NCBI GenBank assembly: GCA_902795065.1
Contig: CADBJR010000004.1
Location: forward strand, 62,001-126,000
Source of the DNA: an uncultured Coriobacteriaceae bacterium
GTDB lineage: Bacteria > Actinomycetota > Coriobacteriia > Coriobacteriales > Atopobiaceae
DNA length: 64,000 nucleotides
Direction: 5' to 3'
Below are positions 12,827-64,000 of this stretch, in pieces. The position numbers and the translations under genes were made by a program. The notes under the pieces are model-generated. The model made no database searches and was not told the origin of the DNA. It saw only the letters and a list, made by a program, of their open reading frames with translations. Position 1 is the stretch's first letter. Every line of letters begins with the position of its first letter.

Positions 12827-12988
12827 CCACTCGATAGTTGCGCTGGTGCATCAAGATTGCGCCCTACAAAGGGATTGGGTGGATAAACATTGACAGAACA
12901 TCCAATATTCATAGAATCCTATACACTTTTAACCCATGTAGCAGCCTCCACGCCGAAACCTTGATGCACCATAGCAACTATCGAGTGG
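12827..12988. repeat. 162-bp element with 29-bp inverted ends (MITE-like or large hairpin)
   Basis: The ends 12827-12855 and 12960-12988 are inverted copies that match at 27 of 29 positions; each contains CCACTCGATAGTTGC. The ~104-bp interior is much richer in A/T than its surroundings and holds no convincing gene. The gene-free stretch 12732-13057 contains only this element and the terminator at 13000. No obvious target-site duplication was seen. A miniature inverted-repeat element or a remnant of an insertion sequence fits best. Confidence 0.6.
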
Positions 12989-58690: not shown

Positions 58691-59440
58691 ATGCCACGCG
58701 TTCGACGTCAGATCAGCGAATCAGGGTACTACCATGTGATGATTCGGGGAAACGCCCGGCAGATTATCTTCGAGTCGGAAGTCGACCGACGGTATTTCCT
58801 CGATCTGCTCAAGAAGAGCATGGAGGGCACCTCCGTTGCGGTTCTCGCCTGGTGCCTGATGGATACCCACGTCCACCTGCTCATCTCAGACCCCGCGCAG
58901 AACCTCAGCCTTGTGATGAAACGCCTGCTCTCGCAGTATGCGCATCACTACAACGCGCTCGCTGACCGCGTCGGCCATGTGTTCCAGGACAGGTTCCTCA
59001 GCATTCCCGTCGAAACCGATCACTACCTGCTCGAAGCCGTCCGCTACATCCATCGCAACCCGGTGAGAGGCTGCCTATGCGCCAATCCGGGCGATTATGA
59101 GTGGAGCAGCTACCGTGAATACCTCGTCGGGCGAGGCTTATCAGAGGTCGACATCGTGCTCGATATGCTGGGAGGCATACGGGAGTTCATCGCCTATCAC
59201 GAGCGCGATGGAATGTACGTGCCCCGCTTCGCAAAACGCATCTCGACGGAAGACATGATCGCGCTCGCGAAGACGATCACGGGACTCGACGATCTGCATG
59301 TGGTCGGAACGCTCACGGTACAGCGGAGGAACCGTTTTCTCGCACTCTTGAGAAGCGCTGGTCTGTCCTGCAAGCAGATCGAGCAACTCACGGGAGTCGC
59401 ACGCGGTATCGTGCAGGACGTGAGACCGAACCCGACTTGA
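58691..59440 (+). CDS. REP-associated tyrosine transposase (RAYT), family 1
   Basis: The 249-residue Y1_Tnp-type protein has N-terminal RQISESGYYHVMIRG, the HUH metal motif in CLMDTHVHLLIS (His-x-His), and the tyrosine helix with FQDRFLSIPVETDHYLLEAVRYIHRNPVRG. The C-terminus is a helix-turn-helix (CKQIEQLTGVARGIVQDV). RAYTs are single-copy domesticated relatives of IS200/IS605 transposases that cut and move REP hairpins. It is bracketed by REP family 1 copies at 58496 and 59448. Confidence 0.93.
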   Translation: MPRVRRQISESGYYHVMIRGNARQIIFESEVDRRYFLDLLKKSMEGTSVAVLAWCLMDTHVHLLISDPAQNLSLVMKRLLSQYAHHYNALADRVGHVFQDRFLSIPVETDHYLLEAVRYIHRNPVRGCLCANPGDYEWSSYREYLVGRGLSEVDIVLDMLGGIREFIAYHERDGMYVPRFAKRISTEDMIALAKTITGLDDLHVVGTLTVQRRNRFLALLRSAGLSCKQIEQLTGVARGIVQDVRPNPT

Positions 59441-59447
59441 TGGATGC

Positions 59448-59500
59448 ACCGTCCCAAAAGCGCGGAAAACCGCGAAAAAGGAACCGTCCCCAATTACAGG
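59448..59500. repeat. REP family 1 copy that includes the kinase stop codon
   Basis: The complement of CCTGTAATTGGGGACGGTTCC ends at 59500. Read on the minus strand, CTG-TAA-TTG places the stop of the histidine kinase (59496-59494) inside the repeat. It lies 7 bases after the RAYT stop. Confidence 0.88.
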
Positions 59501-60792
59501 ATGACGGAGATCTCGATGGAGCGGCCATCCTCGGAATGGGCGGATACGCTGCCGTTGTGCGCCTCGGCGATTGCGGAGACGACCGCCAACCCGATGCCAT
59601 GCCCGCCGGACGACGAGCGCGCCTCGTCGGCACGGTAGAACCGCTCGAAGAACTCGGGGTGGTCGCCCGGTGCGATCTCCGCGACGGTGTTCCACACGTC
59701 GACACGTGCGTGCCCGCGGCGTACGTCGGCCTCGAGGCGCACCTCTCCCCCGTCGTCCGAATGCTTGAGGGCATTGTCGAGCAGCAGCGTGATCGCCTGG
59801 CGGACAAGCGCCTTATCGCCGCGTGCGGTCCGCGCGGGAGCGACACGGGTCACGAGCCGCTTGCCGCTCGCCACGGCCATCGGTTCGAACTCGCGGACAA
59901 CCTCCTCGACCAGTGCCGTGAGGTTGTAGTCCGCAACCTGCATGGTCGCAGTACCCTCCTCCGCCTTGGTGAGGGCCACCAGCTTGGACGTGAGGTCGGA
60001 GAGGCGCGCGACCTGATGGCGGATGCTCTCCACCCATTCGCTCTCGCCGTTCTCGATCTCGATGACGTCGGCGCTCGACGAGATGATGGCGAGCGGCGTC
60101 TTGAGCTCGTGGCTCGCGTCGGTTACGAAACGGCGCTGGCGTTCCTGGCTTTCCTCGATGGGACGGACCACGATCGCCGAGACAGGAACGAGGATGGCTG
60201 CGACAGCGAGCAGCCCCGCAACGCTGGCCACGGCGCTCGCCAGCGCGAACGACCTGAACGACGAGGCGTCGCGCGAGATATCGACGAAGACGATGGCGTC
60301 CTCATCGTCGATCTCGCAGCGCAGGAACCTGAACCCGTCGATGGTGCCGCGCTCGCGGTTCGAACGCCACGCCCGCTCGCCCAAATCGAGCGCCTCGGTG
60401 GCGTCGATCGAGACGATATGGGAAAGGTCCGCGGACACGGCGAGCGCCCCGTCGTCATCGTCGGCGTCGACCCACACGATGAAGTAGCGGGTATCGAAGG
60501 GCGCCTCGCGTCCCAAACCGCTGTCGAGCCCTTGCAGCTCGAACCCCTGTTCCTGCCCCTGGAAGTCGGCGGGCCCGCCGGGGCCGCGTTTCTCCCCAGC
60601 CTCACCGAAGCGATCCCCATCAAGCTCGGCGAGGTCGCCGTCGACCGCGGCGACCAGGTCGGCGCGCGCATCCTCCCGCGACATCACCGCGATGTAGTTG
60701 GAGATGTTGATGCCGCCCACGATCACGAGCAGCACGATCGCGACGCTCGCAAGCGCGATGGCGATGAACTTCCTCCTGAGCTGCTTGATCAT
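59494..60792 (-). CDS. Sensor histidine kinase
   Basis: The 432-residue protein has two membrane helices (FIAIALASVAIVLLVIVGGI; ALASAVASVAGLLAVAAILV) flanking an external sensor of about 140 residues rich in Asp, Glu and Gly. The kinase core has H-box FVTDASHELKTPLAII, N-box LLLDNALKHSDDGG and G-box SGGHGIGLAVV. It phosphorylates the regulator encoded just upstream, overlapping it by 4 bases. The acidic sensor (GEKRGPGGPADFQGQEQGF) could bind cations or cationic peptides; this is a guess. Confidence 0.93.
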   Translation of the reverse strand: MIKQLRRKFIAIALASVAIVLLVIVGGINISNYIAVMSREDARADLVAAVDGDLAELDGDRFGEAGEKRGPGGPADFQGQEQGFELQGLDSGLGREAPFDTRYFIVWVDADDDDGALAVSADLSHIVSIDATEALDLGERAWRSNRERGTIDGFRFLRCEIDDEDAIVFVDISRDASSFRSFALASAVASVAGLLAVAAILVPVSAIVVRPIEESQERQRRFVTDASHELKTPLAIISSSADVIEIENGESEWVESIRHQVARLSDLTSKLVALTKAEEGTATMQVADYNLTALVEEVVREFEPMAVASGKRLVTRVAPARTARGDKALVRQAITLLLDNALKHSDDGGEVRLEADVRRGHARVDVWNTVAEIAPGDHPEFFERFYRADEARSSSGGHGIGLAVVSAIAEAHNGSVSAHSEDGRSIEISVIL

Positions 60793-61555: not shown

Positions 61556-62188
61556 ATGAAGGTTCTCATGTTGAACGGCGGCTGGCGGGCGGAGGGCAAC
61601 AGCGCGTTCATGCTGGAGTACATCGCGTCCGAGCTCGAGAAGGACGGCATCGAGAGCGAGATCGTCAACGTTGGGGCCGCACCCGTGCACGATTGTCTGG
61701 GTTGCGGGAAATGCTCCGAGACCGGACGCTGCATCTTCTCCGATGACGGCGTGAACGGCTTCATCGACAAGGCCGAGGACGCCGACGGATTCATCTTCGC
61801 CACGCCGGTCTTCTACGCGCATCCCGCAGGCCGCGTGCTCTCCTTCATGGACCGCGTGTTCTACGCAGGGTTCCGCAAGGTGTTCGACGGAAAGCCCGCC
61901 GGTGCGATCTGCGTGGCACGCCGTGCGGGAACCACGGCGACGCTCGACGTGATGAACAAGTACTTCGGCATCGCGGGCATGCCCTGCGTGGGCTCCACCT
62001 ACTGGAACGGGCTGCACGGATTCACGCATGAGAATCTGCTCCGCGATGAGGAGGGCATGCAGACGCTGCGCAACCTCGCGCACAACATGGCATGGCTCCT
62101 GCGCTGCATCGAGGCTGGACGCGCGGCAGGCATCGAGCACCCCGAGCCCGAACGCGGCGCACGCACGCACTTCATCATGCCCTCGTGA
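61556..62188 (+). CDS. NAD(P)H-dependent FMN reductase, iron-sulfur flavoprotein-like
   Basis: The 210-residue flavodoxin fold begins with LMLNGGWRAEGNSAFMLEYI (phosphate loop), followed by the compact Cys motif CLGCGKCSETGRC typical of Isf-type flavoproteins, and FIFATPVFYAHPAGRVLSFMDR. It likely reduces quinones or other acceptors in this anaerobe. Its stop codon (62186-62188) is the first three bases of a REP hairpin. It is divergent from the two-component operon. Confidence 0.9.
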   Translation: MKVLMLNGGWRAEGNSAFMLEYIASELEKDGIESEIVNVGAAPVHDCLGCGKCSETGRCIFSDDGVNGFIDKAEDADGFIFATPVFYAHPAGRVLSFMDRVFYAGFRKVFDGKPAGAICVARRAGTTATLDVMNKYFGIAGMPCVGSTYWNGLHGFTHENLLRDEEGMQTLRNLAHNMAWLLRCIEAGRAAGIEHPEPERGARTHFIMPS

Positions 62189-62216
62189 GACACCCCTCCC
62201 CGGGAGCACTGTCTCA
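62186..62216. repeat. REP family 2 hairpin supplying stop codons to both flanking genes
   Basis: TGAGACA...TGTCTCA arms surround CTCCCCGGGAG. The first TGA ends the flavoprotein gene on the plus strand. The complement of the last TCA ends the RAYT gene on the minus strand. A near-identical copy in the same orientation is at 63012. Confidence 0.9.
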
Positions 62217-62954
62217 TTTTATGATGCGGGAGACGGTCGCATGGCCGATTCCGAATGATCGCGCAATCTTCCGCGCGCTGTTCCCCTCGCTTGCAAGTTT
62301 TCGGATCAGCTCATCTCGCTGCCCTTTTTGAAGAGCCCTGAGCTCGTCCGAGGTCTTCACGCCAGCAAGGGCCATCGCCCTCGCAAGCACATCTCCGTCT
62401 TGCGGGACCACGGATGATGCCCTGCTTACAACATCCTTCGGCGACCCTTCGTATGCATCGAACGCCTCGAAACTTCCGAACAATTCGAGCACCGTGCTCG
62501 TGTCGACGGCCCACTGCAGCCCTGCATACTCGCGATAGCTGCTCCACCGATACTCCCGCATGGGTGCGATGCAGGCATTCTCGGGGTTCATATGGACATA
62601 GTAGGTTGTGGCGATGAGCTGGGAGTCATCGATGAGCGGTTTGCTCCAGAACACACTCTGGAACAGGGTGCCCGATCTGCCCGTCTTCGCATTGAAGTAG
62701 CAACTGTAGGGATGATCAATCGAATGCATGAATGCGCTGATATTCTGAGGATTCTCACCGAAATCGACGATAAGGTGCACGTGGTCGGTCATAAGCACCC
62801 AGGCGATGATCCGCGCGTTGTACTTGTCGCGTGCAGCTTTAAGCAAAGAAAGGTACTTCCTGCGATCGTCATCATCTTCGAACAGGGCAATCTGGCCTGC
62901 GCTGCGCATGGTGATGTGGTAGAAGCCCGACTCGCTCAATTGCCGGTGTGCCAT
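62214..62954 (-). CDS. REP-associated tyrosine transposase (RAYT), family 2
   Basis: The 246-residue protein of the same superfamily as the 58691 gene is clearly a different branch: RQLSESGFYHITMRSAGQI, His-x-His in VLMTDHVHLIVDFGE, FQSVFWSKPLIDDSQLIATTYYVHMNP with the nucleophile region, and a C-terminal helix-turn-helix (SARKIARSFGIGHATVSRII). ATG 62954 follows GGGAGG. It is flanked on both sides by direct copies of the TGAGACA hairpin, so this RAYT and repeat form a separate pair. Confidence 0.93.
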   Translation of the reverse strand: MAHRQLSESGFYHITMRSAGQIALFEDDDDRRKYLSLLKAARDKYNARIIAWVLMTDHVHLIVDFGENPQNISAFMHSIDHPYSCYFNAKTGRSGTLFQSVFWSKPLIDDSQLIATTYYVHMNPENACIAPMREYRWSSYREYAGLQWAVDTSTVLELFGSFEAFDAYEGSPKDVVSRASSVVPQDGDVLARAMALAGVKTSDELRALQKGQRDELIRKLASEGNSARKIARSFGIGHATVSRIIK

Positions 62955-63011
62955 GGCGTCCTCCCGATGTTTGATTGGGTCAGAACGATAGCACAATGCG
63001 GCGGTCCAAGG

Positions 63012-63042
63012 TGAGACACTCCTCCCCGGGAGCAGTGTCTCA
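63012..63042. repeat. REP family 2 hairpin at the rsgA stop
   Basis: TGAGACACT and AGTGTCTCA pair around CCTCCCCGGGAGC. The TGA that ends rsgA on the minus strand (63042-63040) lies in the right arm. It is the second of the two copies that bracket the RAYT gene. Confidence 0.9.
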
Positions 63043-64000
63043 AAGCACGATGTCGGGATCGAGCCCGGCGGCGTTGGCGCGCATCTCGGATGCGAGCGCC
63101 ACGTAGGCGCGCACGCGCGCGGGCGAGAACGGCCCTCCGAGGACGGCGCAACCGGGCTCATGCGTATGGGTGCAATCCCTGAACTTGCAGGTCGAAGCCG
63201 CCTCGGCGATGTCGGGGAACACCTTCGCGAGACCGCGCTCATGGCCGACGAGCGGCAGGCTCCTCAACCCGGGCTCGTCCACGATGATGCCCGCATCGTG
63301 AAGCGACACCATACGGCGGCACACGGTCGTGTGACGCCCTGCGTCATCGCGCTCGCGCACCTCGCCCGTCTCGAGCGCCTCCTGGCCGAGCAGCGCGTTC
63401 AGCAGCGTCGACTTGCCCGCACCGCTCTCCCCCAGCACGATGGCGATGGTGCCGGCAGGCACGAGCGCACGCACGTCGTCGATACCGCGCCCCTCCTCGG
63501 ATGAGGTCACGGCGATAGCAGCATTGTCGCCCACGAGCTCGCGGATCTGCGCAACGGCGCTATCGCGGTGGGCGTCATCCACGCGGTCGGCCTTGGTGAG
63601 CACCACGGCGACGTCGGCACCGCAATCGCGCGCGATCACGGCCGAGCGCACGATGCGCTCGGGGTCGAACTCGCCCGGCAGGAGCGCCTGCACCACGATG
63701 ACCACATCCACGTTGGCAGCGAGCGTCTGCTTCTCGCCGCGGGACTTGCCGCGCCACCGCGCGATGTCGCTCTCACGCGGCAGGATCTCCTCGATGAGGC
63801 CCATGTCATGCTCGGCGGGACGGCGCGCGGCAACCCAGTCGCCCACGGCGACGCGGCTGTTGTCGCCCTTGGTGAGCTTCGCCGCGAACTCCGCGCGGAA
63901 GAGCGCGTCGGCGGTCACGAGCGCCGGGAACCCGCGGTCGAGACGGACCACGCACGCGAGCTCGACATCTCCACCCGAGCGCTCCTGCACCCGATCGAAC
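63040..64000 (-). CDS. rsgA: Ribosome small-subunit-dependent GTPase A (5' end probably outside the window)
   Basis: At least 316 residues are visible. It is a circularly permuted GTPase with an N-terminal OB-fold (DNSRVAVGDWVAARR), G4 VVLTKADRVDD, G1 LGESGAGKSTLLNALLG, G3 DEPGLRSLPL and a C-terminal zinc motif CKFRDCTHTHEPGCAV. It helps mature the 30S subunit. GTG 63990 could start it, but the frame stays open to the edge and lacks a clear ribosome-binding site, so the true start is likely beyond 64000. Confidence 0.93.
   Translation of the reverse strand, partial: FDRVQERSGGDVELACVVRLDRGFPALVTADALFRAEFAAKLTKGDNSRVAVGDWVAARRPAEHDMGLIEEILPRESDIARWRGKSRGEKQTLAANVDVVIVVQALLPGEFDPERIVRSAVIARDCGADVAVVLTKADRVDDAHRDSAVAQIRELVGDNAAIAVTSSEEGRGIDDVRALVPAGTIAIVLGESGAGKSTLLNALLGQEALETGEVRERDDAGRHTTVCRRMVSLHDAGIIVDEPGLRSLPLVGHERGLAKVFPDIAEAASTCKFRDCTHTHEPGCAVLGGPFSPARVRAYVALASEMRANAAGLDPDIVL

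Follow-up and report, generated by a model that had tools for sequence, protein, structure and literature searches.

A tyrosine transposase gene in an uncultured Coriobacteriales genome and the coincidence of its REP hairpins with stop codons

The source genome (G000, a 2.24-Mb draft) contained a gene for a REP-associated tyrosine transposase (RAYT) that was located between two copies of a hairpin supplying the stop codons of the adjoining genes. This locus is probably a RAYT/REP unit, the hairpins of which are kept mainly at the 3' ends of genes and take over termination there without shortening the protein. The locus was found in the window, the 64,000-nucleotide stretch that was analysed (bases 62001-126000 of contig C4), with the gene order histidine kinase (-), response regulator (-), flavoprotein (+), hairpin A, RAYT (-), hairpin B, and rsgA (-). 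The closest relative holding the same RAYT was a sister species (G004), an uncultured Coriobacteriales MAG. The features of the locus, in window positions, were as follows.

58691..59440, plus strand: first RAYT (R2 family; PF01797); a TGA of its own ends it roughly 8 nt short of the R2 repeat
59448..59500: R2 REP (GGGGACGGTTCC family) at the histidine kinase end; its edge overlaps the TAA stop
59494..60792, minus strand: histidine kinase (PF02518/PF00512); its TAA stop (59494-59496) overlaps the R2 edge
61556..62188, plus strand: NADPH-dependent FMN reductase-like flavoprotein (PF03358, 1.9e-26), terminated by the first TGA of hairpin A
62186..62216: R1 hairpin A, supplying the flavoprotein stop (plus strand) with its first TGA and the RAYT stop (minus strand) with its last TCA
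62214..62954, minus strand: RAYT under study, 246 aa, terminating in hairpin A
63012..63042: R1 hairpin B, supplying the rsgA stop (minus strand) with its last TCA; left edge 57 nt upstream of the RAYT start
63040..63990, minus strand: rsgA (PF03193), terminated in the minus-strand reading by the last TCA of hairpin B

The RAYT and its hairpin family

The reading frame of the RAYT started at approximately 62954, not at the upstream start given in the raw list of open reading frames. The protein matched Pfam Y1_Tnp (PF01797, 1.4e-10) and, with 71.7 bits against a cut-off of 80 bits, fell below the threshold of NCBIfam NF047646 REP_Tyr_transpos (5.7e-20). It contained the motifs H58-V-H60 and Y119-V-H-M-N-P, in which H58, H60, and Y119 were invariant in six homologues. 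A sequence search of the PDB returned no match at E 0.01; therefore, the fold was compared instead, and the best PDB match of the AlphaFold model (mean pLDDT of 70, low confidence in residues 123-187) was 4er8, the E. coli RAYT bound to a REP hairpin (E 8e-7). The gene was single-copy in each genome holding it, which is not the multi-copy state of IS200/IS605 elements, and its own palindrome occurred on both sides of it and as solo copies elsewhere in G000 and G004, as expected of a RAYT. G000 harbored six different Y1 genes, each with its own flanking repeats, and the other five were at most 38% identical to this RAYT. Its orthologues in other genera were each flanked by a different palindrome.

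An earlier note on this DNA had proposed a second RAYT and a REP family belonging to it, with direct 31-bp hairpins at 62186 and 63012 on either side that provide the TGA stops of the flavoprotein, RAYT, and rsgA genes, and these claims were borne out. Hairpins A and B were 31 bp long, had the same orientation, shared 29 of 31 bases, and read TGAGACA..TGTCTCA. The flavoprotein stop (TGA, 62186-62188) consisted of letters of hairpin A, the RAYT stop was the reverse complement of 62214-62216 in the same hairpin, and the rsgA stop was the reverse complement of 63040-63042 in hairpin B. The palindrome was found twice in the window (0.01 expected from shuffles) and at nine places in G000, as against none for a reversed-pattern control. 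Seven of the nine, namely hairpins A and B and five others, carried a CTCCCSGGGAG core and were assigned to family R1; the remaining two had the core ACCCGGTC, formed a related family, and were located near another RAYT. R1 thus had seven copies in G000, and ten were found in G004. All R1 copies started with TGAGACA and finished with TGTCTCA, and with GTAG or GGAG absent at the edge they do not belong to the GTAG type of REP. The R1 sites of G004 were mostly tandem doublets where G000 had singles, including those on both sides of the RAYT. In another genome, G003, a hairpin with R1 edges (TGAGACA..TGTCTCA) surrounded an R2-like core (GGGGACGGTTCC) and coincided with the stop of a 466-codon frame. 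A separate inverted-repeat pair of 35 nt, 92 nt apart and 89% complementary, was observed at 12827-12988 of the window.

As DNA, the R1 hairpins had folding energies of -6 to -13 kcal/mol with z-scores of -2.0 to -5.7. This good folding and their position at 3' ends would be consistent with ordinary gene-end terminators or mRNA-protecting structures that are not mobile repeats. However, terminator and promoter scans gave no hits, the hairpins had no T-tract, and they were near-identical copies at unrelated places, linked to a RAYT and arranged as tandem doublets in G004, which makes this explanation very improbable. A protecting effect on 3' ends could nevertheless be compatible with mobility. 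An Rfam search of 58-64 kb of the window yielded no match.

Hairpin sites and gene ends

Eight distinct R1 sites (A-H) were read in G000 and G004. The gene maps were obtained with a home-made simple gene caller, several of the genomes compared were fragmented MAGs, and sampling covered the site neighbourhoods and approximately 460 kb of sampled stretches. Among the non-RAYT gene 3' ends adjoining R1 in the two genomes, 7 of 11 took their TGA from the hairpin. The hairpin of site A terminated the flavoprotein as well as the RAYT, and that of site B terminated rsgA. At site F (G000 C10:80230), a POR-family gene terminated in the hairpin; at site G (G004 C217), the outer edges of an R1 doublet terminated both an EF-G-like gene and a tyrosine phosphatase; and at site H (G004 C5), the outer R1 edges likewise terminated both a hypothetical gene and a UvrD-like helicase. 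The POR, EF-G-like, tyrosine phosphatase, and UvrD-like helicase genes were checked and found to be real. At sites D and E, three gene ends kept stops of their own, located 8, 9, and 31 nt outside R1, and at site C, upstream of selD, the hairpin was read through in a stop-free frame. In contig C3 of G000, an R1 hairpin with a duplicated half was read through, so that a 668-codon open frame joined the upstream gene to a selD-like gene; in G004, the orthologue of this upstream frame ended at the second member of a hairpin doublet, with the hairpin in the opposite orientation.

REP ends that merely read TGA could meet stops by chance if REPs pile up between genes, and TGA was indeed a common stop (140 of 416 called genes, in a sample of about 416 stops and 49 kb of non-coding sequence). 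Exact offsets would then be expected at about 1 in 20 to 1 in 60 ends, against the observed 7/11 for R1 and 5/12 for a second family, R6. With all offsets of 0-60 nt equally likely, the chance of these fits was about 1e-10 for R1 and 9e-7 for R6, and with 1 in 20 allowed for exact coincidence it was 2e-7 and 2e-4, in tests that were post hoc and rest on the simple gene caller. A chance fit is therefore hardly credible. A bare TGA target was also considered and was insufficient: only 99 of 1343 extragenic TGA triplets (7.4%) were stops, and with such a target 5 of 8 sites would not be expected (p 1e-4 to 2e-3). R1 is more concentrated on stops than either an any-position or a bare-TGA-target model would predict.

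The earlier note had also suggested a genome-wide map of hairpins against stop codons, and the outcome differed among families. R6 (TGACAA..TTGTCA), found around the RAYT of contig C6, supplied the stop at 5 of 12 non-RAYT ends, or 6 of 13 with the end of its RAYT counted. On the other hand, R4 (TTAAAAAGGGACGGG) supplied the stop at none of 12 gene ends. In a related genus, TGACACA..TGTGTCA had 46 matches in G131, which contained an orthologous RAYT (63%), and 32 in the congener G135. These hairpins crowded gene 3' ends, mostly 3-20 nt past native stops, and supplied the stop at 5 of 43 ends in G131 and 0 of 28 in G135; two of the five were the RAYT and its neighbour, leaving 3 of 69 without them. 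R1 differed from this family (7/11 vs. 3/69 exact fits, p 1e-5), and R1 and R6 fitted far more commonly than it did (p about 1e-6). Since the TGACACA family also has TGA ends yet rarely fits, TGA ends alone do not explain the fit. Closeness to gene ends is general among these families, whereas R1 and R6 are distinguished by taking over the stop exactly. The supply of stops did not hold as a general rule, given the R4 and TGACACA counts and the 4 of 11 R1 ends that behaved otherwise, one of them read through ahead of selD. In G131 and G135, the bases beside TGACACA REPs were often mutually complementary, as if an older palindrome, possibly a terminator, carried the REP in its loop.

The REP at 59448 had likewise been said to hold the stop of the histidine kinase. 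The TAA stop did overlap the repeat edge (CCTGNAATTGGGGACGG), with its AA formed by letters of the repeat; however, this REP belongs to a different family (R2), and the T lies at the repeat's variable base.

An exact fit would also result from in-frame insertion just ahead of an old stop; thus, the argument is carried by comparisons of C-termini, made for a handful of genes, and not by the offsets. RsgA ended in ..LDPDIVL in G000 and G004, where the hairpin provides TGA, and at the same residue in the hairpin-free congeners G001 and G002, which use TAG; this end was kept in the other readable family members with any of the three stops. The phosphatase ended in ..YLE in three genomes, of which G000 and G001 used TAA and G004 the hairpin TGA. 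The EF-G-like gene was of equal length in G004 and in G000, which has no R1 there and stops with TGA. For the RsgA, EF-G-like, and phosphatase ends, the alignment against repeat-free relatives that the earlier note had called for thus gave unchanged ends. The UvrD-like helicase differed by at most two residues among relatives, with TGA in G001 and G002, and the histidine kinase ended at the same residue in three relatives, with TAG or TAA. The POR gene was of equal length in G002 and five residues longer in G001. The POR end of G002 was rejected as an empty site because it already holds another REP family: it sits in a different palindrome (TGACAAG..TGTCA) resembling the REPs that flank the RAYT of G001 and G002. 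The helicase 3' end carried an R1 doublet in G004 and, in G000, an R4 repeat with the R4 RAYT alongside. These two gene ends indicate that the same ends are occupied by different REP families across species. No clean empty site was found for the flavoprotein end, as G001 and G002 lacked both the flavoprotein and the RAYT there. An aminopeptidase-like gene adjoining the R6 RAYT was left out because the G004 contig stops before its 3' end. Where C-termini could be compared, these results support the view that no coding sequence was lost, even where relatives use TAA or TAG. The earlier proposal of insertion precisely at gene ends without coding loss is thus upheld in part: it holds for the proteins that could be compared, and the precision of insertion is read back from present-day sequences.

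Age and movement of the hairpin-RAYT-hairpin unit

Nucleotide identity between G000 and G004 was about 98.5% inside the unit and about 85% outside, rising at hairpin A and dropping at hairpin B. The RAYT differed at 11 of 738 nt (1.5%) and at 7 of 109 four-fold sites (6.4%). In comparison, the flavoprotein differed at 63 of 630 nt and 34 of 102 four-fold sites, and rsgA at 150 of 945 nt and 62 of 179 four-fold sites; neighbouring genes overall differed at 10-18% of nucleotides, and the four-fold value was 31-35% across four neighbours. Judged from these divergences, the hairpin-RAYT-hairpin unit is much younger than the surrounding genes.

Strong sequence constraint on the RAYT is an unlikely cause of the island, since another RAYT pair of the same two genomes (C44/C177) differed at 164 of 708 nt and 45 of 92 four-fold sites (49%) and was less conserved than its own flanks. 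Constraint is further disfavoured by another genus (five genomes), in which the syntenic RAYT occurred in two allelic forms that differed in their REPs. Among RAYTs sharing a REP type, identity was 91-98.5%, compared with 80-91% for the flanks, whereas between REP types the RAYT and its flanks were equally diverged. Because the island ends exactly at the hairpins, the simplest reading is that the unit was recently transferred, re-inserted, or converted between lineages, so that the whole unit would have moved between them. Horizontal transfer of RAYTs has been suggested for isolated cases (PMC3686654).

Origin of the fit and relation to known systems

In the favoured explanation, the locus would consist of a single-copy gene for an HUH/Y1 nuclease, flanked on each side by a copy of the hairpin that this nuclease presumably processes. 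The same RAYT would move the hairpins and scatter the solo copies, which would survive mainly at gene 3' ends. A hairpin placed on a stop codon, or at a spacer from a native stop that was later lost, would then take over termination for a gene on either strand, and the protein would not be shortened because both palindrome ends read TGA (TGA..TCA). The exact fit itself may have arisen from insertion, perhaps with a TGA-containing target or TGA micro-homology, or from later deletion.

Selection and deletion without any targeting would be sufficient if REPs land short distances past stops and the native stop and spacer are subsequently lost, for example by slippage between TGAs; such loss would be harmless because the hairpin has TGA at both ends. 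This is a serious possibility, if somewhat short of probable. It agrees with the spacing of the TGACACA REPs and with the R1 ends at sites D and E, which still keep their own stops 8-31 nt away. Furthermore, at an orthologous gene end, G116 retained a TAG before the REP, and G114 had lost it and ended two residues later in the REP TGA. However, the much lower frequency of exact fits in the TGACACA family, which has the same kind of ends, and the convergent pairs at sites G and H, in which both genes stop exactly at the outer hairpin edges, are not easily accommodated by it.

Alternatively, the RAYT may home to stops through a target motif that includes the stop (TGA or longer), to which the hairpin is joined. 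The exact fits of R1 and R6 point in this direction, as do the TGA stops of several hairpin-free or differently occupied relatives (the EF-G-like gene in G000 and the helicase in G001 and G002) and the GAA or GAAA found in front of TGAGACA at roughly half of the R1 edges. Nevertheless, the relatives of rsgA (TAG) and the phosphatase (TAA) had no TGA, no longer motif was conserved at all edges, and the hairpins concentrate on stops although 92.6% of extragenic TGAs are not stops. Homing of the RAYT to stop codons is rather doubtful. It is less likely still that the hairpins home to stops with single-nucleotide precision and that the RAYT also continues to move between species as a hairpin-bounded unit; if true, this would contradict the view of RAYTs as immobile, vertically inherited domesticated genes.

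Returning to the favoured RAYT/REP unit, the findings bear on how REPs choose insertion sites and whether RAYTs still move. Target choice and mobility are directly testable here because the R1 copies are few, apparently recent, and exact at stops, their positions differ between sister species, and the RAYT unit is young. The findings also give a warning for annotation, as the C-terminus of a protein in these genomes can fall within a mobile repeat. A literature search for RAYTs together with Actinobacteria found no paper within a limited collection and set of terms.

In 2010, REPs were described directly behind the stop codons of rayt genes (PMC2817692), and GTAG REP termini that provide TAG stops were published in 2013 (PMC3733652). 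R1 is a variant of this phenomenon that differs in reading TGA at both ends, in its actinobacterial host, in the comparison of its C-termini with those of relatives, and in the youth of its unit; what is new here is that this unit forms an identity island. The locus resembles the REP/RAYT systems (REPtrons) of gamma-proteobacteria, such as E. coli TnpA-REP (4er8), in its single-copy Y1/HUH gene, its own flanking palindromes, and solo copies that are mostly extragenic. It differs from these systems in that R1 lacks a GTAG/GGAG tag, has TGAG at both ends, and is present in few copies (7-10) in an actinobacterial host. The GTAG REPs that supply stops (Di Nocera et al. 2013, PMC3733652) represent the same general phenomenon, whereas the R1 stop is TGA, comes from either end, and was examined against the C-termini of repeat-free relatives. 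IS200/IS605 elements (IS608, ISDra2) share the Y1 fold, hairpin substrates, and TnpA-like structure; in contrast, the RAYT belongs to a distinct family with a C-terminal extension and an HTH-like end, and its gene is not multi-copy.
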